Positions 192 through 59,436 of a stretch of 64,000 nt of DNA are shown here, piece by piece. Both the position numbers and the translations under genes were made by a program. The first letter of the stretch is position 1. Every line of letters begins with the position of its first letter. Source of the stretch: Liolophura sinensis (taxonomy: Eukaryota; Mollusca; Polyplacophora; Chitonida; Chitonidae); NCBI RefSeq assembly GCF_032854445.1, contig NC_088306.1, positions 9,696,193 through 9,760,192 on the forward strand, read 5' to 3'. The notes beneath the pieces were generated by a model that saw nothing but the letters and a program-made list of their open reading frames with translations, was not told where the DNA came from and made no database searches.

Positions 192-3100
192 CTGCAACAG
201 GAATACATTCTAATAATCAGTAAACAGGCTCTGATAAGGCCGACGTTCAAGGTTGTTGTGGTGAATTGAAGAAAAAGGGCAAGACACTTTCACTTGCCCT
301 AATTCTTCAACCTTCCGACTATCTCTGCAACTAATATTTTGAAACATTCTGAGAAAACTATGGGGTGTAGAGAAATAATTTGCACAGTTTTATGAAGGTT
401 GCATCTTTAATGACACGAGCAAAATCATTTTAGCATCTTTTATTAGGTTACCATAGTTAGGTTCATAAATTCCACTGGAAAAAGCACTTTAGTAGTTGAA
501 AAGGTCGATGATTACAGTAACACATCAAAAATAGAGACAACTCTCCAGCAGAGTACATGTAAATCCATCACTGAGTATACACATGTGGAGAGAAAAGTGT
601 GCAAAGGAAGACGTCTTTATGTTCGTCAGTCGTCAACTCTGCATGAAATTTGACCAAATTAATCCAGAAATAACGTAAAACTGTTTTTGTAAGGCATAAC
701 TTTAACACAACGAGGACACAGACAGATGCTCAAGGGACAGACGATCTCAGCTAACCTGCTTCCAATCAAGGCTCAACCTGCGGATGGTCGTGGGTTTCCT
801 CCCACCATAATGTTGGCCGTCGTCGTATAAGTGAAATATTCTTGAGTACGGCGTAAAATACCAATCAAATAAATAAATAAATAAATAAATCCAATCAAGC
901 CCTACATATATGACGCTGCTACTGTCCTCTTTTACTAGAATCATTTTCAACTGGTAAAATTCATTCTCCTGATATCTGACATATCTTATTGTGCATTCAG
1001 TTTAAAGTACATCCACTAAAACACGATATGGTGGAGAGTTAGTCATTGCAGAAGCTGTAAATTCTGTTCAAAAATTCTATCAATCTGCTCTTCTGAGAAA
1101 CCTTTGCTCCATCCATGACTACTTGGCTTGAGTCACTAGAATCATTTTCAGCTGGTAAAATTCAGCACTTGCATGTGTTCAGTAGTTATACGTTCTCCTG
1201 ATATCTGACATTCTCCTTATTGTGCATTCAGTTTAAAGTACATCCACTAAAACACGATATGGTGGAGAGTTAGTCACTGCAGAAGCTGTAAATTCTGTTC
1301 AAAAATTCTATCAATCTGCTCTTCTGAGAAACCTTTGCTCCATCCATGACTACTTGGCTTGAGTCCTTCTTTGTGTTTATTTTCAAGAACAGACTTTTCA
1401 TCACCAATGATGTATCAGTGTGTTGCTGCTATTATAATTCTCTTAGATAGATTAGATACATTATTCCATAAAAACAAAAAAAAAAATTTAAAAAAATTCA
1501 AGAATTCTTGACATACTCTTGTCAAATAGGTATTTATTTATTTATTTGACGGGTGCTTTACGCTGTACTAAAAGAATATTTCACGTATATGACGGCAGCC
1601 AGCATTATGGTGGGAGGAAACTGGGCAGAACCCAGGGGAAACACATCCCCACATCGCCCATAACCAGGTTGCTGGCAAACCTTTCCACTTACGGACGGAG
1701 AGGGAGCCCACGTGAGCTGGACTTTAACTCACAGTGACCACATTGGTGAGAGGCTCGTGGGTCATTACGCTGACATAGCATGCTAGCTAACTGAGCCACG
1801 GCCATGTTTTTTTCTTAAAATCGTTATGAAAATTGTTGAACACAAGTACCTTAAATTCTTGTGTAGATTTACACTTTTTTCACCATATGACTGCAGTCAC
1901 TCAGTCAAATTATCTCCCTTATTGGGATTCGATTAAAACATGACATTACACTTTTTGGTTCCGATAAGTGCATTATAAGCAGCGTACGGCCATTACAAGG
2001 TTTGCCTTACTTTTTGGAATACTCTTGATATTCCAGCTCTGCCTTCTGTTTCATCATCTCCTCGTAATGATGGGTCTGTTGTAAGATTTCAGCTCGGTGC
2101 TGACTCGTCAATTCCTCCACGTGCTGCCGATGAGCAGCTGTCAGTCTCTGCTCTAGGGCCTCTCTCTCTACACTGAACTCTGTCATCTTCTCAGAAATCT
2201 GAAACAGACAACAGAATAATACATACTGTACAGGACAGACAGTAAGCTGGTTTGGGGACTAAAAGACTTTAATTTTTTAAACTGTAAATTTAATTCAAAC
2301 GTTACGTGACTGGTTATAAGAAATAATAACAAAAAAATTGCGGACCTGTTTTTTGAATTTACTATGTTACTTGAACTTGTCCAACACCAAGGCAACTGGC
2401 AGAAATATACATAATCATAAATTCGCCTACTGTGACACCAGCGGTAGAAAACATAGACTTTTGTGTTTTACTGCAAAATTTTCCATCACAAACCTAGCTT
2501 GAAATGTTATCTACTTAAATATTAAAATGTAGGAAATCATTTCTGTATGATCTGGATCCTGACAAGCATTACAATTAGCTTTGAAGCGCAGAGTCATTTT
2601 TCATAGTACATTGTACATGTATGTATGTATACTTGAGTTTTATGTCGTACTTAACAATGTTTCAGTCATATGACGACAACGAGTCATTAGGTGTGTGTAT
2701 ATACACTGTCTCTTCTTTTGGCAGGCCGAGTGCATGCCGCCGAAGTGCTGTAGCCACTGAAGTATCACGCTGAAGACACCAGACATGACACCCTTCTCAG
2801 TCACATACATCTGACACCGGGCCAACCAGTCTGTTTTCTCCCGACTTAAAAAAATGACTCACTGGATGCATATAACTAGATAAAAATGAGCGGCTTTCTT
2901 CTGGCTGGTTAGCTTGACACCTTATACATGTATATCTTGTGTTTGACACATTGAACCAGTATTTTTGGTAGCCAATTTACTGGCGTAGGAAATACTACTG
3001 ATGTGAGAAAACATTGCAGTAGGAAGTGACAAATAAGACATGAATTATAATCCCACAAATTATAATCCCACAAACCATAATCCACAAATTATAATCCCAC

Positions 3101-6100
3101 AAATCGCAATCCCACAAATTATAATCCCACAAATTATAATCCCACAAATCGCAATCCCACAAATTATAATCCCACAAATCATAATCCCACAAATCATAAT
3201 CCCACCCACAATTATAATCCCACAAATTATAATCCCACAAACCATAATCCCACAAATTATAATCCACAAATCGCAATCCCACAAATTATAATCCCACAAA
3301 CCATAATCCCACAAATCATAAATCCCACAAACCATAATCCCACAAATTATAATCCCACAAATCATAATCCCACAAATCATAATCCCACAAATCATAATCC
3401 CACAAACCATAATCCCACAAATTATAATCCCACAAACCATAATCCCACAAATTATAATCCCACAAATCATAATCCCACAAATTATAATCCCACAAACCAT
3501 AATCCCACAAATTATAATCCCACAAATCGCAATCCACAAATCATTAATCCCCACAAATTATAATCCCACAAATCGCAATCCCACAAATTATAATCCCACA
3601 AACCATAATCCCACAAACCATAATCCCACAAACCATAATCCCACAAATTATAATCCCACAAACCATAATCCCACAAATTATAATCCCACAAATCGCAATC
3701 CCACAAATTATAATCCCACAAACCATAATCCCACAAATTATAATCCCACAAACCATAATCCCACAAACCATAATCCCACAAATCATAATCCCACAAATTA
3801 TAATCCACAAACCATAATCCCACAAACCATAATCCCACAAACCATAATCCCACAAATTATAATCCCACAAACCATAATCCCACAAATTATAATCCCACCA
3901 ATCATAATCCCACAAACATAATCCCACAAATTATAATCCCACAAACCATAATCCCACAAATTATAATCCCACAAATCATAATCCCACAAATTATAATCCC
4001 ACAAATTATAATCCCACAAACCATAATCCCACAAATTATAATCCCACAAATCATAATCCCATAAATTTTAATCCCACAAATCATAATCCCACAAATCATA
4101 ATCCCACAAATTATAATCCCACAAATCGCAATCCCACAAATTATAATCCCACAAATTATAATCCCACAAATTATAATCCCACAAATCATAATCCCACAAA
4201 TCGCAATCCCACAAATTATAATCCCACAAATCGCAATCCCACAAATTATAATCCCACAAATTATAATCCCACAAACCATAATCCCACAAATCGCAATCCC
4301 ACAAATTATAATCCCACAAATCATAATCCCACAATCATAATCCCACAAACCATAATCCCACAAATCATAATCCCACAAATCATAATCCCACAAATCGCAA
4401 TCCCACAAATTATAATCCCACAAATTATAATCCCACAAATTATAATCCCACAAATCATAATCCCACAAATCGCAATCCCACAAATCATAATCCCACAAAT
4501 CGCAATCCCACAAATTATAATCCCACAAATTATAATCCCACAAATCGCAATCCCACAAATTATAATCCCACAAATTATAATCCCACAAATCATAATCCCA
4601 CAAATCGCAATCCCACAAATTATAATCCCACAAATCGCAATCCCACAAATTATAATCCCACAAATTATAATCCCACAAACCATAATCCCACAAATCGCAA
4701 TCCCACAAATTATAATCCCACAAATCATAATCCCACAAATCATAATCCCACAATCATAATCCCACAAAACCACATGTACACACACCCTTGTCTCATAGTC
4801 CGATTTCAGATCAGCCTCCAGCTTCTTCAGATTGTTCTCGTGCTTTGCTTCGTTTAGACTCATCTCTACCTTCAGGCTCTCCTGAAAAAAAAAAAAAAAA
4901 AAGTCAGCAAATCAAGTGTTGAGAGCTTACAACAATTTTAGGTATTTATCTAATATTCAGTGGTATACTCTGTCATACAGTTAACATTTAATTTATAGGT
5001 GTGCAACTGTTTACATGGATTAGCTCCTAAATATACACCTTCACGTACACACATCTTGGGCTTTCGCAAAAGATCTATTGATTTGCTGGTAGATCTGTCG
5101 GTACAACCAGTATAAACAATACACATTTTAAATGTACCACTGTCTGAAGACAGCCGTGCAAACAATCATTAACGGTACATGGGTGTGTCCCATAATTGTT
5201 ACATGCATGATATTAGTTTAAAGGGATACAAAATTGATTCTGATAGGCTGGTGTAAGAGATAGGCAAATGAGGGCTATGCCTTGCCTGAGCTCAACTTTA
5301 GCTACGGTACATTCACTCAAGTGTGATCATGGCTGCGAGATTTAACCCACAAAACCATATCCTCACTGACCGCCACTGAGCGATCATTCTGTATCCCTTT
5401 AAGTGCTTTTAAGCAGTGTTAAAAATCCTTCACTTCACTGACAGCAGTCATGTTTATACGTGGTGGAATCTGGACAAAAACAACACTAGATAAAGGACAA
5501 TTTGACCTAAAAACTGAAACCAAGCCATGGGTACTAGTTTAGAGGTAGTCATCTAAACAGAGGCAGTCTTGGTAGCTCTCACACTGATGCTACAATTTTT
5601 CAATTTTAATCAGCAAAAAAGTAAACTGATTCATGAAATTCTGTGTAAAAAAAATCTAAATCAATTTCAAATAAAATATAAATCAATAAAGACAAAGTTT
5701 CAAAATTTGACAGATGTCATCGCAGTCCAGTACTCCACAATGAGGGTTATCAGGAGATGTTTGTGGTCACCTTTTCCCTGACGGCAGCGTCCAGTTCCTT
5801 CTCTAGTTTGTCCATCTCTGTCACGATCACTTTCAGCTGTTCTTCCACTTCCTGTACCAGGGCGCCCTTCTCCTCAGTACGCTTCTAAAGACAGATCATT
5901 CACAGGAATTCAATTAAAAACAAAGTGAAAACCTGCTCCCATTTGATATTAGATCTACTCAAAATGTGCCAGTGATCCTGATGGCCAGATTGGTGTAATG
6001 ATTAAAGGAGAAGAAAACTTTTAAAAAAGACACTATGGGCTGAAAAGAGCACATTTTATTCTATCTGGTGGTGCCTGCTGCATAATTTTACGATTTGTCC

Positions 6101-7294
6101 TCGCCATACACATAAAGCCTGTAAATGGTAAAGCTGGCATAAATCGCTGAGTTCATCGTGTACTCCATCTTTAACACCCTGTAATTTATGCTGGGGGTGT
6201 GTTGCCTCTCAACCCATGAGAGTCTTTAAAACTGCTGGCTTGTTCGTGTAAACTAGGAACCCACATCCAACATTCTAGTTTCCCGATCGTCAAGCGGAAA
6301 ACGAACTGTACTGTTCGCTACCTTCTGGGAAGAAGAGTTCAACCGGAAATGTACAAACTGCATTTTGTTGGTTTCCCACGGCAATTCTCCTCTTAACACA
6401 GAAGACTTCAGGACCAGTTCTTAGGCAAAATGGAGTCGCCCACAATGTATTTTGGCGCTGACTTTATTTATAATTTATCAACTTGAGGTACATATTATAA
6501 TTTGTTTTGTGGCATGCACCTGTGAGGAAATGCATACTCTTTTCTATGGTATTTGATTGATATTTAAATTTTCTTCTCCTTTAAAACAGAAAAATAACGC
6601 TCAAATCCCAAATATCACATCATGATGTTGGCAATCATTGATGTCCACCTCAATAAAAAGGCTCAACACACTTCAAAATCCTGTCACATTTATGTTCAGA
6701 ATTATTTAACTTGTTTCACCTTTAGAGAAAAATCAAAATGTGATGAAGAGAAACCATTTCCCCTGTTCTTGTACCTGACACACTTCCCCACACATGAAGC
6801 GCAGACAATAAAAGACACACATGAACGGGAGTGCTGAGTTTGATTCTACAAGATCTGTTGTAAGCAGAAAGGTGTTTTCAGGTATGTTTAAAAGGTAGGA
6901 TGTACTTCTACTGGATAAAGGTGTGTTTCAGAGCCAAAAGTAATATTATATGAACAATATTTGCCTCTAAAAATGCACTTTTTCACACAAACTTTTGGGG
7001 CAGATACAGTACTGAATTTCGCCTCAAGTTTAACATTTTTCTTGATTCTGACTGATTCATCCACCTTATAAGAACCACTTAAGAGATTTTTGTGATGTTT
7101 GATTACTTTCTTCTCATGAAAACTTGAGTGCTGGCATAAAAAGTGTCATATTCTGGCTTTAAGTGTACTTCTCAAGGTTCACTTTTACATACCAAACGTT
7201 AGGTGAAATACAGCATATGGTGTCAGTGGCAACATTGTCAGTTTTGTCTCGATCCTTAGCCAGACGTTACATGACATACTTACCCTCTCTTCTT

Positions 7295-7331
<37 letters not shown>

Positions 7332-10300
7332 ATTGGTGTTTTGCGCCGTACTCAAGAATATTTCACTTATACGACGGCGGCCAGCATTATGGTGGGTGGA
7401 AACCGGGCAGAGCCCGGGGGAAACCCACGACCATCCGCAGGTTGCTGACAGACCTTCTCACGTACGGCCGGAGAGGAAGCCAGCATGAGCTGGACTTGAA
7501 CTCACAGCGACCGCATTGGTGAGAGACTCCTGGGTCATTACGCTGCGCTAGCGCTTTAACCGACTGAGCCACGGAGGCCCCCTCTTCTTGGATGGCCTTC
7601 AGCTTGCTTCCTTAGCCAGACAGTACATGACATACTCACCCTCTCTTCCTGGATGGCTTTCAGCTTGCTTCCTTAGCCAGACAGTACATGACATACTTAC
7701 CCTCTCTTCCTGGATGGCCTTCAGCTTGCTTCCTTAGCCAGACAGTACACGGCATACTTACCCTCTCTTCCTGGATGGCCTTCAGCTTGCTTCCTTAGCC
7801 AGACAGTACATGACATACTTACCCTCTCTTCCTGGATGGCCTTCAGCTTGCTTCCTTAGCCAGACAGTACATGACATACTTACCCTCTCTTCCTGGATGG
7901 CCTTCAGCTTGCTTCCTTAGCCAGACAGTACATGACATACTTACCCTCTCTTCCTGGATGGCCTTCAGCTTGCTTCCTTAGCCAGACAGTACACGGCATA
8001 CTTACCCTCTCTTCCTGGATGGCCTTCAGTTTGCTTCCTTAGCCAGGCGGTACATGACATACCCTCTCTTCCTGGATGGCCTTCAGCTTGCTTCCTCAGC
8101 CAGACGGTACATGGCATACTTGCGCTCTCTTCCTGGATGGCCTTCAGCTTGCTTCCTTAGCCAGACAGTACATGACATACTTACCCTCTCTTCCTGGATG
8201 GCCTTCAGCTTGCTTCCTTAGCCAGACAGTACATGACATACTTACCCTCTCTTCCTGGATGGCCTTCAGCTTGCTTCCTTAGCCAGACAGTACATGACAT
8301 ACTTACCCTCTCTTCCTGGATGGCCTTCAGCTTGCTTCCTTAGCCAGACAGTACACAGCATACTTACCCTCTCTTCCTGGATGGCCTTCAGCTTGCTTCC
8401 TTAGCCAGACAGTACACGGCATACTTACCCTCTCTTCCTGGATGGCCTTCAGCTTGCTTCCTTAGCCAGACAGTACATGACATACTTACCCTCTCTTGCT
8501 GGATGGCCTTCAGCTTGCTTCCTTAGCCAGACAGTACATGACATACTTACCCTCTCTTCCTGGACGGCCTTCAGCTTGCTTCCTTAGCCAGACAGTACAC
8601 GGCATACTTACCCTCTCTTCCTGGATGGCCTTCAGTTTGCTTCCTTAGCCAGACAGTACATGACATACCCTCTCTTCCTGGATGGCCTTCAGCTTGCTTC
8701 CTCAGCCAGACGGTACACGGCATACTTGCGCTCTCTTCCTGGATGGCCTTCAGCTTGCTTCCTTAGCCAGACAGTACATGACATACTTACCCTCTCTTCC
8801 TGGATGGCCTTCAGCTTGCTTCTTTAGCCAGACAGTACACGGCATACTTACCCTCTCTTCCTGGATGGCCTTCAGTTTGCTTCCTTAGCCAGACAGTACA
8901 TGACATACTTACCCTCTCTTCCTGGATGGCCTTCAGCTTGCTTCCTTAGCCAGACAGTACATGACATACTTACCCTCTCTTCCTGGATGGCCTTCAGCTT
9001 GCTTCCTTAGCCAGACAGTACACGACGTACTCACCCTCTCTTCCTGGACGGCCTTCAGCTTGCTTCCTTAGCCAGACAGTACCTGGCATACTTACCCTCT
9101 CTTCCTGGATGGCCTTCAGCTTGCTTCCTTAGCCAGACAGTACATGGCATACTTACCCTCTCTTCCTGGATGGCCTTCAGCTTGCTTCCTTAGCCAGACA
9201 GTACACGACATACTTACCCTCTCTTCCTGGACGGCCTTCAGCTTCCTTCCTTAGCCAGACAGTACACGACATACTTACCCTCTCTTCCTGGATGGCCTTC
9301 AGCTTGCTTCCTTAGCCAGACAGTAAACGACATACTTACCCTCTCTTCCTGGACGGCCTTCAGCTTGCTTCCGTAGCCAGACGGTACACGGCATACTTAC
9401 CCTCTCTTCCTGGACGGCCTTCAGCTTACTTCCTTAGCCAGACAGTACATGACATACTTACCCTCTCTTCCTGGATGGCCTTCAGCTTGCTTCTTTAGCC
9501 AGACAGTACATGACATACTTACCCTCTCTTCCTGGACGGCCTTCAGCTTGCTTCCGTAGCCAGACAGTACACGACATACTTACCCTCTCTTCCTGGATGG
9601 CCTTCAGCTTGCTTCCTTAGCCAGACAGTACATGGCATACTTACCCTCTCTTCCTGGATGGCCTTCAGCTTGCTTCCTTAGCCAGACAGTACATGGCATA
9701 CCCTCTCTTCCTGGATGGCCTTCAGCTTGCTTCCTTAGCCAGACAGTACATGACATACTTACCCTCTCTTCCTGGATGGCCTTCAGCTTGCTTCCTTAGC
9801 CAGACAGTACATGACATACTTACCCTCTCTTCCTGGACGGCCTTCAGCTTGCTTCTTTAGCCAGACGGTACAGGACATACTTACCCTCTCTTCCTGGATG
9901 GCCTTCAGCTTGCTTCCTTAGCCAGACAGTACATGACATACTTACCCTCTCTTCCTGGATGGCCTTCAGCTTGCTTCCTTAGCCAGACAGTACATGACAT
10001 ACTTACCCTCTCTTCCTGGATGGCCTTCAGCTTGCTTCCTTAGCCAGACAGTACATGGCATACTTACCCTCTCTTCCTGGATGGCCTTCAGCTTGCTTCT
10101 TTAGCCAGACAGTACATGGCATACCCTCTCTTCCTGGATGGCCTTCAGCTTGCTTCCTTAGCCAGACGGTACAGGACATACTTACCCTCTCTTCCTGGAT
10201 GGCCTTCAGCTTGCTTCCTTAGCCAGACGGTACACGGCATACTTACCCTCTCTTCCTGGACGGCCTTCAGCTTGCTTCCTTAGCCAGACAGTACATGACA

Positions 10301-13300
10301 TACTTACCCTCTCTTCCTGGATGGCCTTCAGCTTGCTTCCTTAGCCAGACAGTACCATGACATACTTACCCTCTCTTCCTGGATGGCCTTCAGCTTGCTG
10401 TCTGTCAGCTCGTCCAGTTTGTGGAGTAGCTCTCGCTCTCGTCTGTACCAGTTGTCTTGTTCCTGAGGTTAATATGACGAAAACATACAAGATATCCTGG
10501 TAAGCTTAACTTTCCATATCATAAGGCCTTTGATGCCAACTTCACTCAACAACCTAATTCTATGTACACAATTACCTCCCCTTGGCACACTATGCATAGC
10601 CTTAGCTGCCAGGTTAAAGTAGGGCCAGACCAAAGCAGGATATCCTGCAGCATGTATGTGAGGCTACATGTATAGGTACAAAGGAGAATTCTCCTGGTAT
10701 TTGGTTTTAACTGTTCTTGAGTACATAAAGGAAACAGTGGAAACAGTAGATCCGGTCCTTTTTTTGCAATAAAGAGCATAGACTTAAAGGGTGGGTCAAG
10801 CAGCAGTGCCTGACCCTATGGATACTTTAAACATATGAACTACAAAAGCCATTTATGGTCACAAACAGTATGATTTTCACCAGGAAATTAAGCTGGAAGT
10901 ACTAAATGAGTGTTCCATAACAGAGCCAGGTCAAAAAATGCTATGTATTCAGGCATTCACCTTGTGAAGCTGCTCCTGAAGATTCTCAACTTTGACCTCA
11001 GCAAGGTCACGACCTTCCTTAGCTCGCTCCCATTCTGCGGTCATCCGCTGCGCCCGATCTCTTTCTGAGGACAGCTGATCAAACATGCTGGACATTTCAC
11101 GGGACTGCTCTTCTAACTGGAAAAAAAAAATGAAACCATTCAGCTGCAAGTCAGGTCTTAAAAAGAGTCCATAATTCTACTTCAGTACACGTTTGTTGTT
11201 AAAAAGGTCCAAAAATTTCAAACAAAAACCTATTATTGATGTTACTCTTTGCTACTATGTACTTGGTCAAATGTATTCTGTCTTCACCAGTTTCAACACG
11301 AGTTATCTGCCTAGCTTGTTCACTTTGCTCTGAACAAAGGATTTCAAACAACGTTTCACTAACTTGTGCTACCTGGCCTCCAACGGAGAGTACAATGACA
11401 GAATTATAGTTACATGTACAACATACTTACAGCTCTGTACCTGATTTCAAGCATGTAGAGAGACAAGAAGCAGTCCTCTCATATGTAGCTAAGCCTTCCC
11501 CACTCCCCCACTCCAACTAACCCCTCAGTACTTTACCTGGGTGTTTAGTTTATCCATGGATATTGTGGCTGTTTCCCTTTCTTCTCTCAACTCCTCTACT
11601 AACCCTGCTAAATCGGACTCAAATTTCTTCAGTGCCTAGAAAAAATGAAATAATCATGTTACTCTATTCCAGCTGGTATAATCTATGGGAAGCTGATTAA
11701 AGGTAGTTTAAAACCCTGAGGTGAGGAAATTTTGTGGTGTAAAGAATTATGTGTATGTGATATTTTGGTTATGGCAAATATGCAATCTTGTTCCCCTGTA
11801 AACCATTACACTAAGGCCAGGTGCCATGATGATGGTGCCTTAGGATCCCAAAGCTATGCAAGGCTTAAATGGACCTTTGCAAACTATCCTTGCAAGTGGG
11901 TCAATCTGATATCCTATGCAAAGGTTACAAATGTTCAATCTTACATGCAGCACAAAAATTGTAGCACTAATTGAAAGTTTTCTTGATTACCACAAAGAGG
12001 TAAATTCAGTCCATAAATCTTGAAAAAAATAGTCACAGAGACATTTTGTACCAGAAAATGTAAGCATGGAGGCTTTCTAGAAAACATGTGTTTACTACAG
12101 AAAAAAAGTATGTAACAAGTAAATTTTTACACTGAAAGTCTATCAACTTAAATGAAATTATTCACAAAGGCAAAAAAACCCTAAATCCAATACAAAAAGT
12201 TCAACCTTCCATAAGTAGGCCATATTTATTTATTTATTTATTTGATTCATGTTTTATGCCATAATCAAGAATACTTCACTTATAAGATTGAGGTACATAT
12301 TAGAATTTTTTTATGGCATGCGCGGAAATGCATATTCTTTTCAATGGTATTTGACTGATATTTAAATTTTCTTTTCCTTTAAACATGAGAGTGATAAATG
12401 TTTCAAAAAGAATTAAAAACAAAAAAACCTTCCATACATACATGAGATCCCATTATACAGGAGCTGAAAAAAAAGCTTAACCTTCCATCCATGTGTGAAA
12501 CTCCATTGAACAGGAGAGGAAAAATAAGCTTAACCGGACAACACCACAGACACTTTTGCCCGTCACAATATCTCGCCTTACTTCGTACAGGCGAGCTAAA
12601 AAGGAACATATTTGTAATGACAGTGTAGAGTAACTTTTAATCTTTGATTTATTTTATTTATTTCATTGGTGTTTTACGCCGTACTCAAGATTATTTCACC
12701 TTTACAACTGCAGCCAGCATTATGGTGGGAGGAAACCAGACAGAGCCCAGGGGAAGCCCACAACCATTTGCAGGTTGCCGGCAGACCATCCCACCTGAAT
12801 AGAAATTTGTTGTAATTTTAGAATAATAAAATGTCTTGTAATTAAGGCCAGGTCTGAGAGCTTTGTAATTAGCGGACAAAGACCGATATAATAGTCAATG
12901 ATACTGCGTGAAAAGATTTTCAGATTGGATAAATGTATGTCATTTTCTTTTCTTTTTTACTTCTATCTTTCGGACAAGTTTAGCATTTCAGCAGAAGATG
13001 TTACTCTGAGATACAGTTTAAAGTCTACATATTTGTACAAAGTATCTTCAAACAACTGAGCATTCTTACTGCAGCTTGCTGCTGAAGAGAGGACTCCATC
13101 TGACTCTTCTCTGCCTTCAGCTTTTTGAGGAGTTCTTCTGAATCAGCCTCTTTCCTCTTCCAGCCATCCACCACCTGAGCAAATTGCTACAATAACAGCG
13201 ACAACAGAGATCAATAGAGAGAACATAACACACCTGTATACTGTATTTCACCTAATGTTTTAGTATTTTTCAGGGACATGTAGCGCACTTTGCTTGATTC

Positions 13301-16300
13301 TGACCGAATCATCCACCTTATACGACAATTTATTTTCGTTTTCAATGCAGTCTGATTAATTTCTTGTCAGAAGAACTCAAGTGTTGCGTCAAAAGTATCA
13401 CTGTAGGGCCTTTGTGTTCTTCTGAACCTGCATTTTTTACATTACCAAACTTCAGATGAAGTCCACTAGAACATTTCACTTAGAGGACGGCAGCCAGCGT
13501 TATGGTGAGAGGCAATCGGGCAGAACCCGCAGGGTTTTCATTTAGAATCGGAGAAGGAGGTCAGAGTTGAAAAGTAGGCGGCTGAATTGAAAGCAGTTAA
13601 GTGACAATTACTACTGACTTAAACAGTAAGAATATTCAAAGTAGGTGGCAACTGGGACGACAGTAGACAGTTGTCTGATGCCGGCTACTTGCCCTTTTGG
13701 AACACCATGAACCCGTGTGAAACCCACGACCATACGCATGTACACATATTTAAACAGCTCTTGTCACATTGTAGGTTAATGTCAAAATAATCTCTATACC
13801 TTGTGAATAGATTCAATTTTGCAGTCCAAGGCAGTGCTGGAGTTTTTGAGGGCTTTCAAAAAAATCTGACCATCTATTTGTGACAAATAATGAATAGGGA
13901 GTTCTTCAATTTTTATTGTATCGGGAATAATAAAATAATAGTAACAATAAAACAAGCTGGTTCAAGCATTGTACTCCTCTGTTCTTTTCTATAAGATGGC
14001 AATGTTTCTGTTCAGTGGTGATCGTAAAGCAAAGAGGTAGGTCACAAGCAAAGAGGTAGGTCACAAGCAAAGAGGTAGGTCACAAGCAATGAGGTAGGTC
14101 ACAAGCAAGGAGATTGGTCACAAGCAAAGAGGTGGGTCACATGCAAAGAGGTAGGTCACCAGCAAAGCGGTAGGTCACAAGCATGAGGTAGGTCACAAGC
14201 AAAGAGGCAGGTCACAATTAAAGAGGTCGGTCACAAGCAAAGAGGTAGGTCACAAGCAAAGAGGTTGGTCACAAGCAAAGAGGGTGGTCACAAGCAAAGA
14301 GGGTGGTCACAAGCAATATGGGTCACAAGCAATGAGGTGGATCACAAGCAAAGAGGTGGATCACAAGCAAAGAGGTGGGTCACAAGCAATGAGGTAGGTC
14401 ACAAGCAATGAGGTAGGTCACAAGCAATGAGGGAGGTCACAAGCAATGAGGGAGGTCATGAGAGAGGTCACCAGGAAAGACGTAGGTCACAGGCAAAGAG
14501 GTAGGTCACAAGCAAAGAGGTTGGTCACAAGCTATGGGGTAGGTCACAAGCTATGGGGTAGGTCACAAGCAAAGAGATGGGCCACAAGCAAAGAGATGGG
14601 TCACAAGCAAAGAGATGGGTCACAAGCAATGAGGTAGGTCACAAGCAAAGAGGTAGGTCACAAGCAATGAGGCATCACAGTAGACAATTATGCAGTTCAC
14701 ACAGATTGTGTGAGCGGTGAATGTCGAGCAATCACGCCAGTTATATACATACCTTATCCAACTGCTCTACCATTGAGTCCTTCTTATTGCTCTGTGCAAC
14801 AACCACGGCAAGCTGCTGTTGTGCTTCCAATAGCTGGAAACCAAATACAGTAAAAGTTTCATGTTAAAACCCGTGAAAAAGCAAACATTTAACTCGACAG
14901 ACATTCCACACATGCAACAAAGGAAATCATTTCATGTAACATTTTTCATATTCAACCACATGCAAAATACTGATGCTTTCTTTCATTTCTTGGGAACTTC
15001 AAAAAATTACAAATCTTCTGGGTTGTGATTTAGAACGTGCATAACAATACTGGAAACGGAAATTTTCGGAATATTCAAGTACTACACTAAAGGTAACATA
15101 TACACACAACGCATTTCTGAAATGCTCCATGAAACAATGTTACCTGGAAAAGCATCTTTGCACTTTTAGTGTCATCTCCTTATATACCTGTTTATTTATT
15201 TATTTGATTGGTGTTTCATGTCATACTCAAGAATATTTCACTTATACGACCGCAGCCAACATCATGGTGAGAGGAAACCGGGCTGAGCCCAGGGGGAAAC
15301 CCACAACCATCTGCAGGTTCCCATGTACGGCTGGAGAGGAAGCCAGCATAAGATGGACTTGAACTCAAAGTGACCACATTGGTGAGAGGCTCCTTATATA
15401 CATACCTTTGAGTTCAACTGTTGTATATGGCTTTCACAATGCTGCAACAGACAAAATAAGACAGGCAAAGTATACAAACCATTTACTGTTAACGTTACCA
15501 TTTCATAACCAAATTTGCAGACTTCATTTCTGAAATTCAGAAAGTTGCATCTTTAGAATATTGCTGTAAGATTTTTTTTTTTTTTTTTTGATTGGTGTTT
15601 TACGCCGTACTCAAGAATATTTCACTTATACGACGGCGGCCAGCATTATGGTGGGTGGAAACTTGAACTCACAGCGACCGCATTGGTGAGAGACTCCTGG
15701 GTCATTATGCTGAGCTAGCGCTTTAACCGACTGAGCCACGGAGGCCCCCTTGCTGTAAGAAGATACTTATTGATTTTTTATCACAAGGATTACAGGGTTC
15801 GCACAGAGAAATAGGAAAGAAATTCCAGCAGTTTTCCAGGATCAAAGTGCAATTTTCAAGGAAAGATTTTATATAATTTTTACAGATGTTGCGAGAGAAA
15901 TTTTCAGCAAAAAATCGATTTGCATACTTCCAGCTGAAATTTTGCATAGCTCAAATAATAACCTTACCTATACCCAAAATACCAACCTTGTCTGTGCACC
16001 TGTTACAGTTTAAAAATCAGTAACAAAGTTCCTAAAATCTATTACCCTAATTCTTCTCAAATTTAGGACAAATATCAGTAGTGTTGAAAGTAGAATATTA
16101 CATTTCTTTACCAGTAAAGATATGAGTATGTGGATCATTAGATGGTCTAAACATGTGAGAAAAAAGTAACTCACTATTCCTGCTACAATTACATGAATAT
16201 TGGCCAAAATGAACAGACCAGGTGTCCCAAATTTTACAAGAAATATGGTAAGCGGGTCGCATTACAACTTTTTCAAATTTTAGAACCATATTTTATTACT

Positions 16301-19300
16301 TAAATATAAATACTTCACGTATGAGTGTTTTTGAGAGGTTAGCTGTACGAATTCAGTTTTTTCACGTTTTGATGAGAAAAAAAGATTGACATACACGACA
16401 AACATTTCCTCCCACCCAACACCAGAATTTTCAAGGAGTTTCCGCGAGTTTTTATTTTTCTCCAGGATTTTCAAGTCCTTGAATCAGACTTTCGTTTTTC
16501 CACGAATTCCACGAGTTTCAATGGCTGTGCGAACCCTGGATTAAGTAAATCACTTTATCTTCCTTTCATACACAACTACACGTATCACAAACATAGGGTT
16601 ATCAGGCTACAACTGAATGTCCTTAAAAAGGGATGCCTGGACACCCTTTTTCACATTTCTGTTTACCCCCCTTGATCACACACATCAATGAGAAATACAT
16701 AAAAATCTTTCTCTACATTTCTGTAAGAAGATACTGTACTGTGGGTCTACATTTTTAATAATAAGTGTTACTCGAGTTTGTACCTTTCTGCGATATCGCT
16801 CTTTCTCCAGTGTTTCCTTTAAGAACCGATTCTCTGCCACAAGCGTTGGATCTGATTGGTATCTGCCAGAGTTGTCTCCCCATATACGTTGTGAGGCATC
16901 ATCGAGGCAGACAGGGTTGGACGGTTCTGAGTGACCACGTGTGCTGTGATCAGAAAATAGAAATCGGTCTTACTTCTACATGAAAGCCTCAGTCAGTAAT
17001 TCAAAAGTCTCAGTTAGTGCAAATTTAAAAGTTCCAGTCAGTTCAAATTTAAAAGCCTCAGTCAGCCCAAATTCAAAAGCCTCGATTTTTATTTGCAGTA
17101 TTCCAAGGCTAAAATTTAAGACTTTGTGAAATCGGCTTATCGTACCTTCTCATTAATTACAGACACCCACTTACTGAGACACACCGACAGTAAGCGGGTA
17201 TATCAGAGGAGTTTCCCGTGAGGCACTCACTGCCATGAGAAAATATTGATCTCTGAAGAGTACGTATTGCTGTGAAACGCATTGGTAATTTGACAGAAAG
17301 TACATTAACAGTGTTCGCACAGAAAAGTTCAAGTGGTTAGAAAAGGCCTGATTTCACAGTTCCCGCACGAGAAATTTCATATGTAGATTTCATTTGGCAG
17401 TTGCAGGTCTGGGACATGCAAGACTCTGGAGTCATTGCCAGACACAACACCTAAACATATATGTTCTGTGTCATAATAAATGTCTAAAGTAAAGAGAAGA
17501 ATTGCCACATTCTCCTATGCATTCATCTACTAATCACTATAAAGGTATGCTCAAAAGTTACAAATGATGCAGAATATGACATGGTATCAGTAAATGCGCT
17601 AACATGTCCCTTAACACCCATCCCTGGGAAACCTCACTCAGTTCAATCGAACTTCAATTAAACTGAAGCATCTTGACAAACTCTTCAGTTGAATGTTAGT
17701 GAGAGAAAATATGCAAAGCGTATGTGGGTATATGGATTGCAAAAATCAAGACTACATGTAGAACAACTGCTACAGGTACTGGCTTTAGAAATTTTACCAG
17801 ATAACAAACTCACAACAAAAAGCTTGATTAAAACATTATGGAAATTCACGGCTCGTATGTATCCCACTGACAATATATTTTTTAAGCAGTTTTCCCAAAT
17901 TACCGTCAGGTATATATATATTGGTGAATGAACGATTACCTACAGTGAAAAAACTTTTGAACCAGGTTTTATTTTTAATGTGGCAATAAAACCTTTAAGG
18001 TTATGTTTACGAGACTATATCTACTTTTGGCTGTCACCCCCAACTTTCAGCTAACCTGCACCACATGTTGTTGTGATAAACATGGACTCAAAAGTGAAAG
18101 AACTGGTGGTTATTCGCTAGTCACTTCACATACTCATCGAAGAGTCCACATGTTCATTGTGTCAAATGCAGGACTTGTAGGCAAACGGCAAGGATGCGGG
18201 CTGAAAAGCCTGTAATTACAAACATGTGCTTAGTCAATATTCGTGGAGTTAATTTTTTTTTTTTTTCTTCTACATCCTGACATTTATCGCAACACCAAGT
18301 CCATCTCTGCCTCTTACAACTGTTCACTGGCGCCAAAATTGAACCTTTAAAAACCCGGCAGTCTGTCTCGTCTCTCCCCATCTTGCCAAGCTGGTGAGGC
18401 TCACTGATCTGACTACCGGTAATCCCCTACCCCTCAACAGAGAGCGTATGACTTAAGACAACAGCCCTCGCAACGCATCGTGCAATAAATTTTCTGAAAA
18501 TGCATCTGAAATTGATGAGAAGGTACGGGCATACACAACTGAAATTCAGTTGAAAATTCCTTCCACTAAAATGCATGAAAGATGTGATAACACCCACTAA
18601 CATACAAAGAGCCTAGCAGTAAGAGAAGAGGCAACACAATGCTAAGCAGCAAATGGGCATAAATGGAAAATGTGTATTCATGAGATGTAACTCTCAAGCA
18701 GTCAAGAGGTTAATTAATTTCAAATAAGCATGAAAGTGTTGTGTTACAATGTTATAGCTATAAGACTACATCTTACTCAAACCACAAAGTGCTCCCCTGG
18801 CTTCTGGGAGAAAAATTTGAATCTGCTGCTCGAGGAACTTGACTTGAATGACCTTGACCCCCAAGAAGGTCACTAACACCATCTGCATTGCCATGTTCTA
18901 CATTACCTGAAAGAAAGAACAGAAATTGTATTGCCAGCATGAGAAATATGTGAAACAGATACAAAAACACTTGTCTGACATTGGATAGTGTTAATATGAA
19001 GAATATATATTACACCGTTTTGTGCCGTCACAATACATAAATAGACATAACCTAATTCTTCCAACCTTTTCAACTGCAGAGAAATAATTTGCACAGTTTC
19101 ATGAAGCTTACATTTTTAATGATGCAAACAAATGATATTTTAGCATCATTTTCATCATAATAGTTTGCACATATTCCTCTAAAAAAGTGCTTTAGTGACT
19201 GGAAAGGTTGAAGAGTTACGGAGTACATAATGATCTTCAGATAACCACTGCTTGTATTTTACTTCAAAACTCTAAGTGGATATTAATTTTATCTAATTTA

Positions 19301-22300
19301 TCTGTAGTGCTGTCTAATGTAATTTATCTGTAGTGCTATCTAATGTAATTTATCTGTAGTGCTATCTAATGTAATTTATCTGTAGTGCTGTCTAGTGTAA
19401 TTTATCTATAGTGTTGTCTAATGTAATTTATCTGTAGCGCTGTCTAATGTAATTTATATACAGTGCTATCTAAAGTAATTTATATGTAGTGCTGTCTAAT
19501 GTAATTTATCTATAGTGTTGTCTAATGTAATTTATCTGTAGTGCTATCTAATGTAATTTAGATGTAGTGCTGTCTAATGTAATTTATCTGCAGTGCTATC
19601 TAATGTTTAACGTAATTTATCTGTAGTGCTATCTAATGTAATTTATCTGTAGTGCTATCTAATTTATCTGTAGTGCCATCTAATGTGTAATTTATCAGTA
19701 GTGCCATCTAATGTAATTTAACTGCAGTGCCATCTAATGTAATTTATCTGTAGTGCTATCTAATGTAATTTATCTATAGTGTTGTCTAATGTAATTTATC
19801 TGTAGTGCTATCTAATGTAATTTAGATGTAGTGCTGTCTAATGTAATTTATCTGCAGTGCTATCTAATGTTTAACGTAATTTATCTGTAGTGCTATCTAA
19901 TGTAATTTATCTGTAGTGCTATCTAATTTATCTGTAGTGCCATCTAATGTGTAATTTATCAGTAGTGCCATCTAATGTAATTTAACTGCAGTGCCATCTA
20001 ATGTAATTTATCTGTAGTGCTATCTAATGTAATTTATTTGTAGTGCTATCTTATGTAATTTATCTGTAGTGCTATCTAATGTAATTTATCTGTAGTGCTA
20101 TCTAATGTAACTTATCTGTAGTGAGTGAGTGAGAGAGTGCTTGGGGTTTAAGGTCATACTTAACAATGACGACGAAGAAATCCTTAGACGCCTTACCGAA
20201 GGCAAGTAAGCGGCCCCACCTGAGCCATAATACTGATACAGGTCAACCAGTTGTTGCACTATCCCCTTCAAGCTGAATGCCAAGCAAGGAAGTCACACCT
20301 TCATCTTTTAAGGTCTCAAGTGTAACTTGACCCAAGACTGACCCTTGATCTACCGCTCCCGAAGCGGATGCTAATATATCTGCAGTGCTCTACCAACTGT
20401 GCTATCGGGGCCGGTATTTGTAGTGCCATCTAATATAATTTATCTGTAGGGCTATCTAATGTAATATATCTGCAGTGCTATCTGAAATAAGAATGTGACA
20501 CTTACCTACTAAAGCCTGCCCTTGTTGAATGACCTTCTTCAGATGCCCAAGGACCTCATCCATATCCTTGCCTTCTGGATGGCTGAACATTGGTAGCTCT
20601 CCTGACATAGGAGGTGAAGAAGGTTGAGGCTGAAATCCAAAGATAAAATCAGAGATACTGGTTAATACACATATTATTATTGTCCCAGGTAGCACTGCAA
20701 GATATACAATTAAATATTAGGATTTTCAGTTGAACAACAGTTGGGAAATGAATTGTACTAAATAGCCAGAGTTCAGTTCAGTGATTGTTAATTTCAATAA
20801 CTGCAGGAAATACAGTATACATGCTCAATAAATTTACTTTCAAAGGAAGCATTTATTTATTTATTTGGTGTTTTACGCCGTACTCCAAATATTTCACTTA
20901 TATGACAGCCGCCAGCATTATGATGGGAGGAAACTGGGCAGAGCCTGGGGGAAACACATGCCCATCCACAGGTTGCTGGAAGACCTTCCCACGTGCGGCC
21001 AAAGATCTAAGGAAGTAAAGCACACAGCCAACATTTTGACAAAATTGATAACTACCGTGTATTTTATCTTACCGCAGATGTAAAATCCTGGTAAACTTGA
21101 GGTGTAAAGTGGGACTCATCGGGCACAAGTACTGAAAATTTGGACACTGCTGTGTCCTGAAACTCAAACCCTTTCAAATTTGATACAGCTGAATGGGAGG
21201 TAGTTGCCATGGATGCTTCAGAGTTGTTTCTGTCTGTTTGAGCCGATTGATTCTCGTTTCCATAAAACAACGCATTTCCAGCAAGTGGCACAGAAGTACC
21301 CGCTCTTAAATGCACCTGTTGAGAGTTACCTCCCTTGTCCTGTGCCCACCCAAGAAAACCAGAAGATCTGTCTTGACCTGATACCCTGCTACCAATGGGC
21401 TGCTGTGTTGCTTTACCCCCAAATGCTCCCTGAGAGATGGGCTGAGAGTGAGGAAACCCTGTGAAGTGTCCTTGCCATGGCTTTTGGTTGGTGGGGGTAA
21501 CTCTGGTACCCGTACTGCTGAAGTCATTTTGTGCCATTCCCTGCACGTGGGAAGGGCGTGATATTTTGTAACTGGCCAGGCCATCATTTCTGTGGTTAGG
21601 CCCCATGCGCACAGGGTACATCTGCGGGGATCCTACCTCACTCTGACCAGACACTACCTCTGGTCTCTGGAAACCTTTCCCCTTGAAATCCTGTCGGGGA
21701 GGACGCCCAGCCATCATCTGAAAGCGATTCTGGATGGTATCCTCATGTTCAGCACCGTCAATGACCGGCGACCTTTCGCGCGAGCCCCTGTCTGAAGGTG
21801 ATTCCTCACCCATTCTGCCAGCGTCCATCAGCCGACACTCCAGCTCCCTCTCCATTGCACTCTCCATGTAATGTTCAGGAAGAATTGGGCTGGCTTCCAT
21901 CTCACCCACAGACAGAGCTACTGGGTGTTCAGGGGAGAGAGCTGTGCCAGATTTTGTGGCAGACTTTGGGTTAGGTGTAGAAGACTTTGACAAGCTGGCA
22001 CCAGGAAGCCGTGAGTGGTTTCCTGTCCCCTCAAACTCATCAAAGTCAAGCATTTTGATTGGTGAAAACAACATGGGTTCTGCAGTCCCAGCCTCTGATT
22101 CAGGTCTGGAGTCACCTAGGCTGCGCCTCAACAACGGACTTGCTGCAGTGTTCTGCACAAGAGTTCCAGAACCGCTGCTCTGCAGCAGGTGCCCAGCAAA
22201 CAGAGCATTAGTTGTTGAGTCTTCCTCTGTTCCAGTCTCCCCAGGAATGTCACGACCACAGTCCACGAATCCCTGCTCACTCTGAGCCAGGCCCTTTCCT

Positions 22301-35836: not shown

Positions 35837-36796
35837 CTAGAATTCCTCACCAGGCATATAAAGGGGATGTCTTTTAGCCCATTCAAAAGGGAACAATTTT
35901 AAATTTCGATCCAGTTTGTTTAGGTTTTGCATGTCACTTTCGTCCAGTTCAAAATTGTAAACCTCAATATTTTCTCGTATTCTCTTCTCAGAGCTACTTT
36001 TGGGAATTACGACAATGTTCCTCTGGAGCATGTGACGAAGCAACACCTGCCCTGCACTGCGTTTATGTTTCTTTGCTACGTTTTTCACAATCGCATCCTC
36101 CAATGGGAATGGTTCGTTCGGAGCTCTCTTTGGTAAACCTGGTGCACCAAAAGGGGCATAAGCTGTCATGACCATATTCCTGGATTTACAGTAGCGTAGA
36201 AGATTCTGTTGTTGTAGGTACACATGGCATTCACACTGCAAATTTGCTGGCTTGATTCTGGCATTCTGCCATATACCCTCCATTAATCGAATAGAAAAGT
36301 TTGACATTCCGATCGCCAATGCCTTTCCGCTATCCACCACTTTTTCCATGGCTGTCCAGGTTTTGTTTAAGTCATAATTCTCCAGCTCTCGTTCACCTTG
36401 AGCATTAACTGGTAAATGAATGCCGTCACCACGATTCTTATTTCCCCATGGGTAGTGAAGTAACAGCATATCCACATAAGGGGTTTTAAGAGCCTCTAAA
36501 GATTCTTCCAAGCTCGCTTTAACGTCTGCTGGTGCAAAATAAACGGACGGAATTTTCGTGGTGATAAAAAGATCTGCACGTTTCAGAGCCCCATGTCTGA
36601 CCTTTGCCTGCACCACATCGCCAACGTCATCTTCGTTATCGTATCGTCTAGCAGTGTCTATATGCCGGTACCCGTAGAACAAGGCCTTGTCAACCGCTAG
36701 CCTGCCCTCGCTTCCCTTCATCAGATATGTTCCCAGGCCCAGCGAGGGCATCTCCAGCTTTTTGACGGCGTTGAGAAGCGTAAGATGACGGGACAT
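35837..36796 (-). CDS. Aldo-keto reductase, AKR1-like, intronless, 319 aa
   Basis: A single open frame of 319 codons forming a complete (alpha/beta)8-barrel NADPH-dependent oxidoreductase. The catalytic tetrad is present: Asp47 and Tyr52 in YRHIDTARRYDNE, Lys81 in FITTKIPS and His114 in LLLHYPW. The family signatures MPSLGLGTY (residues 16-24), IGMSNFS and the cofactor-binding VIPKSSSEKRIREN are also present. Such enzymes reduce carbonyls to alcohols in the cytosol; the substrate cannot be told from sequence. Length is normal for the family (about 310-325). No introns interrupt it, unlike its neighbours, so it may be an old retrocopy; no poly(A) tract or target duplication is seen. The start was chosen because the frame opens there in context GAAAATG and barrel homology begins at once. 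Confidence 0.95.
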   Translation of the reverse strand: MSRHLTLLNAVKKLEMPSLGLGTYLMKGSEGRLAVDKALFYGYRHIDTARRYDNEDDVGDVVQAKVRHGALKRADLFITTKIPSVYFAPADVKASLEESLEALKTPYVDMLLLHYPWGNKNRGDGIHLPVNAQGERELENYDLNKTWTAMEKVVDSGKALAIGMSNFSIRLMEGIWQNARIKPANLQCECHVYLQQQNLLRYCKSRNMVMTAYAPFGAPGLPKRAPNEPFPLEDAIVKNVAKKHKRSAGQVLLRHMLQRNIVVIPKSSSEKRIRENIEVYNFELDESDMQNLNKLDRNLKLFPFEWAKRHPLYMPGEEF

Positions 36797-37010
36797 TTTC
36801 TCTTTGTTCTCCGACCTCGCATGCCAGATGGGCGGTTCACTGAAAAGTCGGGATTAAACTTGCAAAACTCTTTTATCCGCTCAAATATGTCGAGTCGTGT
36901 TGTCAGCTACGGGCACATTTATGAGTAACACGCGCGCAAACACGCCAGTTCTGTTGTTTCCTCGGTCGTGTCTACCTTAAACTTGAAATTGACTCAAAAC
37001 AAATGGGACC
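36797..37010 (-). promoter_or_regulatory. Upstream region of the aldo-keto reductase gene
   Basis: The 200 bp before the start codon are unique, with no recognised repeat and no clear TATA box. The promoter is assumed by position only. Confidence 0.25.

Positions 37011-40673: not shown

Positions 40674-59436
<18,763 letters not shown>

Follow-up and report, generated by a model that had tools for sequence, protein, structure and literature searches.

Introduction

The closest described relatives of the locus reported here are the mirages of amphioxus, tandem arrays in which the repeat unit spans an exon-intron boundary, the copied units keep their splice signals, and the units are homogenized with one another. 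Excerpts of the paper describing these arrays place them in Adh3 and in the globin genes BflGb6 and BflGb9, with regular splicing reported for Adh3 and the globins (PMC3087553), and an excerpt of a further paper adds the genes TnC and PGBD5 (PMC3902484). A literature search covering molluscs returned only these amphioxus mirage papers (PMC3087553, PMC3902484). According to the excerpted account of BflGb6, two haplotypes carry 6 and 3 units and the copied boundary is the 3' one (PMC3087553), whereas in the array that we analyze here, known from a single haplotype, a 5' boundary is repeated in 47 units, 39 of which hold an exact donor. If a SINE in the array, described below, is a true guide to the species, the mirage phenomenon may extend beyond lancelets.

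The human 6-16/IFI6 gene offers another point of comparison, with a repeat unit of about 12 nt. The minisatellite of this gene (G1P3) reportedly provides several donors within one transcript (Turri et al. 1995), as our array does, and a passage in a citing paper states that two downstream units are used and give further protein isoforms, whereas at our locus every later donor leads to a stop codon. The Rogers model, in which introns arise through tandem duplication of AGGT segments and which the relevant portion of one paper illustrates with ATP2A1, fission yeasts and the potato RdRp gene, likewise involves tandem copies of splice signals (PMC4974935); as presented there, the copies create a new intron, whereas the present array lengthens an existing one. 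Tandem repeats are also described in earthworm metallothionein introns (PMC12783039), as is, in C. elegans, a minisatellite close to alternative exons (PMC4039745), in passages that make no mention of a copied donor. Our array is not without precedent: it belongs with the mirages of amphioxus and the minisatellite of human 6-16/IFI6, and with 47 units it is a large member of that known kind. Less usual here are the number of copies, a higher-order repeat of 10 units, and the presence of three more long arrays in the same gene. More broadly, tandem repeats that modify human gene structure are reportedly the subject of a published study (PMC2812944).

Results

The window, by which we mean the whole 64-kb stretch of DNA that was analyzed, contains a 61-bp minisatellite on its minus strand. 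Splitting the array at an anchor sequence gives 46 complete units (7609-10399), numbered on the minus strand from position 10399, and a 47th that starts at 7608, is interrupted by a SINE and extends to 7253. Tandem Repeats Finder (TRF) reports the same minisatellite as 7578-10399, with a period of 61, 46.5 copies, 94% matches and a score of 4998. Each unit runs from AGCAAGCTG through GAGAGG/GTAAGTATG to CTAAGGA and consists of 30 nt of exonic and 31 nt of intronic sequence on either side of a predicted boundary. The exonic part corresponds to the final 30 nt of the exon at 10462-10370, and the donor reads AGG/GTAAGTATG. An earlier note on this DNA had described a 5' splice site multiplied about 46-fold by a minisatellite whose unit joins the end of an exon, its donor and the early intron; in the assembly both parts of that description hold, with a split 47th unit in addition. 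Among the 46 complete units, 41 are 61 bp long, four are 57 bp, and one, unit 1, is 62 bp. The 3' remnant of unit 47 (7286-7253) carries an exact donor at 7284/7283 and borders TCGAGACA. Comparison by eye of the exon flank (..ACAGAC) and the intron flank (TCGAG..) with the unit junction revealed no evident microhomology at the ends of the array.

The exon that carries the authentic donor (10370-10462, minus strand) is 93 nt or 31 codons long and in phase 0, with the acceptor ...ttaacctcag/GAA and the donor AGAGG/GTAAGTA at 10370/10369. It is preceded by a 156-nt phase-0 exon at 10961-11116 and followed by a 114-nt phase-0 exon at 5771-5884, both on the minus strand, and it is the acceptor of the latter, tgatctgtctttag/AAG, for which all 47 donors compete. 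Splicing from donor 1 leaves an open reading frame across exons 11116-10961, 10462-10370, 5884-5771 and 4881-4786, so the exon limits proposed in the earlier note are compatible with open phase-0 splicing to 5884. Computed read-through over the same set of exons leaves the frame open for none of donors 2-47. The stop was printed for 11 of the 46 later donors and is always the same TGA in unit 2, within a stretch that the other products share; all of donors 2-47 thus run into this codon, as had been claimed, and the readable isoforms attributed to downstream donors of IFI6 have no counterpart among these predicted products. The accompanying claim that reading through a unit adds 61 nt and shifts the frame by one base does not stand, since unit 1 is 62 bp long and donor 2 therefore adds 62 nt, moving the frame by +2. 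In the product of donor 2 the stop lies 20 nt before the next junction, and because a further junction follows, the usual rule predicts that this RNA would be degraded. The TGA in unit 2 also rules out a protein-coding repeat made by exon read-through. A Pfam search with 238 residues joined from six exons of the gene, earlier labeled CNTROB, gave two matches, both under the curated cut-offs, and did not confirm that label; an Rfam search of the window at gathering scores gave no hits.

The donors themselves are well preserved. Within the complete units, 38 of 46 are exact copies of AGGGTAAGTAT, two read GTGAGT, four carry a 4-bp deletion (GGGTATG), and two read GCAAGT and also have an altered base just before it, in line with the earlier remark that a few units have GTGAGT or have lost the site. 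Unit 47 supplies one more exact donor, bringing the exact copies to 39 of 47 and those reading GTAAGT or GTGAGT to 41 of 47, with six altered; the copied units of this array, like those of mirages, have kept their splice signals. The deletions and GCAAGT changes fall in units 5, 12, 28, 29, 38 and 39 and the GTGAGT forms in units 23 and 46, none of them adjoining donor 1. In the 64-kb window the minus strand contains the 12-mer AGGGTAAGTATG 39 times, every time inside the array, and the plus strand not once.

Computed pairing with the 5' end of U1 is -12.6 kcal/mol for the consensus donor, -6.2 and -5.1 kcal/mol for the deleted forms, and -4.3 kcal/mol for GCAAGT. In 12-nt windows the array donor scores -11.1 kcal/mol, compared with -11.5 kcal/mol for the donor at 20506 and -4.5 to -10.1 kcal/mol for ten further presumed donors in this gene, hardly any of whose donors pairs with U1 better than that of the array. 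Substitutions affect 3 of the 9 columns that form the donor, 5 of 27 exonic columns and 11 of 25 intronic columns (exon versus intron, Fisher p 0.07), and the variants do not point clearly to selection that favors or disfavors the extra donors. Concealment of the donors by RNA structure is not likely: the first four units, as RNA, are no more stably folded than shuffled sequences (z +1.72; 191 of 200 shuffles were at least as stable), which argues that predicted structure does not mask the extra donors.

The sequence of the units records a history of copying. There are 26 distinct sequences among the 46 complete units, 16 of the 46 match the consensus if the extra base of unit 1 is ignored, and any two of the units are on average 94.7% identical. 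Rare variants recur every 10 units (z 4.7, a value reached by 1 of 500 shuffles), as for example in units 28-30 and 38-40, and lag 10 is alone among lags 1-30 in exceeding z 2.5. The spacing of the shared rare variants shows that blocks of units have been copied; together, the high pairwise identity and the lag-10 blocks amount to the homogenization between units that is seen in mirages. The SINE inside unit 47 (7298-7581, minus strand) has a 33-base A tail and is flanked by an 11-bp target duplication, TCCAAGAAGAG, at 7592-7582 and 7297-7287. From our reading of its promoter boxes it is presumably tRNA-derived, and it may resemble molluscan elements. Scans of collections of viral and genome contigs with a core of the SINE gave no match, nor did a scan of the viral contigs with a 36-base stretch of the unit.

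A second SINE of the same family lies at about 15749-15572 (within 15561-15760), with the target duplication TCTTACAGCAA on both sides. Aligned with the element in unit 47, it shows three mismatches and a single long gap, which corresponds to an internal deletion.

Three further long arrays lie on the minus strand in the same gene, each shortly past a donor and none spanning a splice site. A 15-bp array (3043-4768) begins 17 nt past the donor of exon 4881-4786, a 19-bp array (14027-14672) begins 80 nt past the donor of the exon ending at 14753, and a 26-bp array (19294-20490), which joins two TRF stretches (19294-20123 and 20415-20490) across an insertion, begins 15 nt past the donor of exon 20629-20506. 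Under random placement of the arrays within their introns, the combined p for such proximity lies between 0.0040 and 0.0003, a post hoc figure whose range depends on doubtful exons (X7 is doubtful); excluding the 61-bp array, for which 30 nt on each side were allowed as an arbitrary margin, p is 0.012 to 0.0009. These values use 18906, the best candidate, as the acceptor of exon X3; the alternative at 18973 gives 0.0046-0.0003, and 0.014-0.0009 without the 61-bp array. The test covers four of the six tandem arrays in positions 1-22335, with poly-T uncounted and overlapping TRF rows merged. The two left out are a 24-bp array of 4.3 copies (16983-17083), which ends about 40 nt ahead of the likely acceptor of an exon starting near 16943, and a 53-bp array of 2.1 copies (12426-12535), whose nearest visible upstream donor is over 500 nt away. 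A preference of arrays for the 5' ends of introns is thus possible, and we treat it only as a lead, because it was noticed afterwards, in one gene, with two short arrays omitted, one of which is near an acceptor. Elsewhere in the window there are two other long tandem arrays, at 41351-42134 (27 bp) and 46113-46697 (65 bp); arrays at 29-60 kb fall outside the gene model used for the placement test.

Discussion

We propose, with a probability of roughly 0.77, that the array is a near-neutral mirage that grew from a 61-bp segment across the exon-intron boundary and is spliced out with the intron from donor 1. The whole array would form the beginning of a 4.5-kb intron that is removed from this first donor. 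Donor 1 would be selected by transcription order combined with exon definition, being the first to be made and the one that closes a 93-nt exon with the upstream acceptor, whereas later donors would define exons of 155 nt to 3.2 kb. Donors 2-4, with exons of 155, 216 and 277 nt, might be used at a low level, giving RNAs with an early stop that would be removed by nonsense-mediated decay. Such an array would require no function, and we propose that it persists because the productive donor is the outermost one. The proposal is supported by the computed reading frame, since only donor 1 of 47 leaves it open, and the amphioxus mirages, which in the excerpted accounts are said not to disturb splicing, provide a precedent (PMC3087553, PMC3902484). 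It also agrees with the donor variants, which carry no clear mark of selection, and with the folding result for the first four units.

Several considerations nevertheless count against a near-neutral mirage. Enhancers cannot single out donor 1, because the exonic part of the unit has been copied along with the rest. If U1 occupies each of several equal donors, the one proximal to the acceptor tends to win in vitro, a rule that would favor a late unit and give no functional mRNA. The U1 pairing of the array donor, near the top of the gene's donors at -11.1 kcal/mol, likewise counts against this reading, as does the use of downstream units in human IFI6, as stated in the passage of the citing paper.

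One alternative is that splicing is noisy with real effect, such that U1 binds many donors, distal ones are often used, many transcripts decay, and the length of the array sets the mRNA level in the manner of a VNTR switch. In its favor are the facts that 46 of the 47 donors are non-productive in the computed reading frame and that 41 of the 47 read GTAAGT or GTGAGT, along with the two downstream repeat units said by the citing paper to serve as donors in IFI6. We consider it rather unlikely, however: the excerpts on amphioxus mirages report regular splicing (PMC3087553, PMC3902484), and selection would be expected to remove an array of strong effect, unless the gene is tolerant. The units could alternatively behave as micro-exons or new introns, with an AG inside one unit serving as acceptor for the donor of a unit upstream of it, and here the portions of the literature that describe tandem-duplication intron gain (PMC4974935) and propose mirage-based intron gain for amphioxus globins (PMC3087553) offer models. 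The best AG of the unit is preceded by a stretch that is 65% pyrimidine (tgtactgtctggctaag), within the 59-100% of nine measured acceptors of the gene, but its T content is 0.41 compared with 0.47-1.0 in gene acceptors, the resulting exon would be 32 nt long and shift the frame, and adjoining units would leave little space for an intron. Judged on these features, acceptor use within the array appears conceivable but weak, and we regard units acting as micro-exons or new introns as very improbable.

A different kind of explanation is that the array has been misassembled, its units inflated in number or mixed, and that the true array is shorter. There is precedent for this, in that the authors of the amphioxus study, in the excerpt concerned, write that one such array appears to be aberrantly assembled in the genome draft (PMC3087553). 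At our locus, by contrast, the 26 distinct units among 46, the 10-unit spacing of rare variants, and a SINE with its target duplication in the last unit suggest a real history, and make such an error quite improbable. From the sequence, the pattern looks like real turnover rather than assembly error, with the exact number of units less certain. On a larger scale, long arrays might be seeded at 5' splice sites throughout the genome, for example by R-loops or stalled replication, with a mirage as one outcome and with productive splicing regulated by the length of the 47-donor array; this is a speculative suggestion to which we give little credence.

The array is a natural experiment in which one donor must be chosen from about 40 near-identical ones that face a single acceptor. 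The outcome of that choice is readable, because every other donor adds a fixed stop and about 61 nt per unit.

Elsewhere in the window, a stop-free frame of 338 codons on the minus strand (35840-36853), apparently a single exon, matches the aldo/keto reductase family (Pfam PF00248, E 3.7e-49), and might be either a retrocopy or a genuine single-exon gene.
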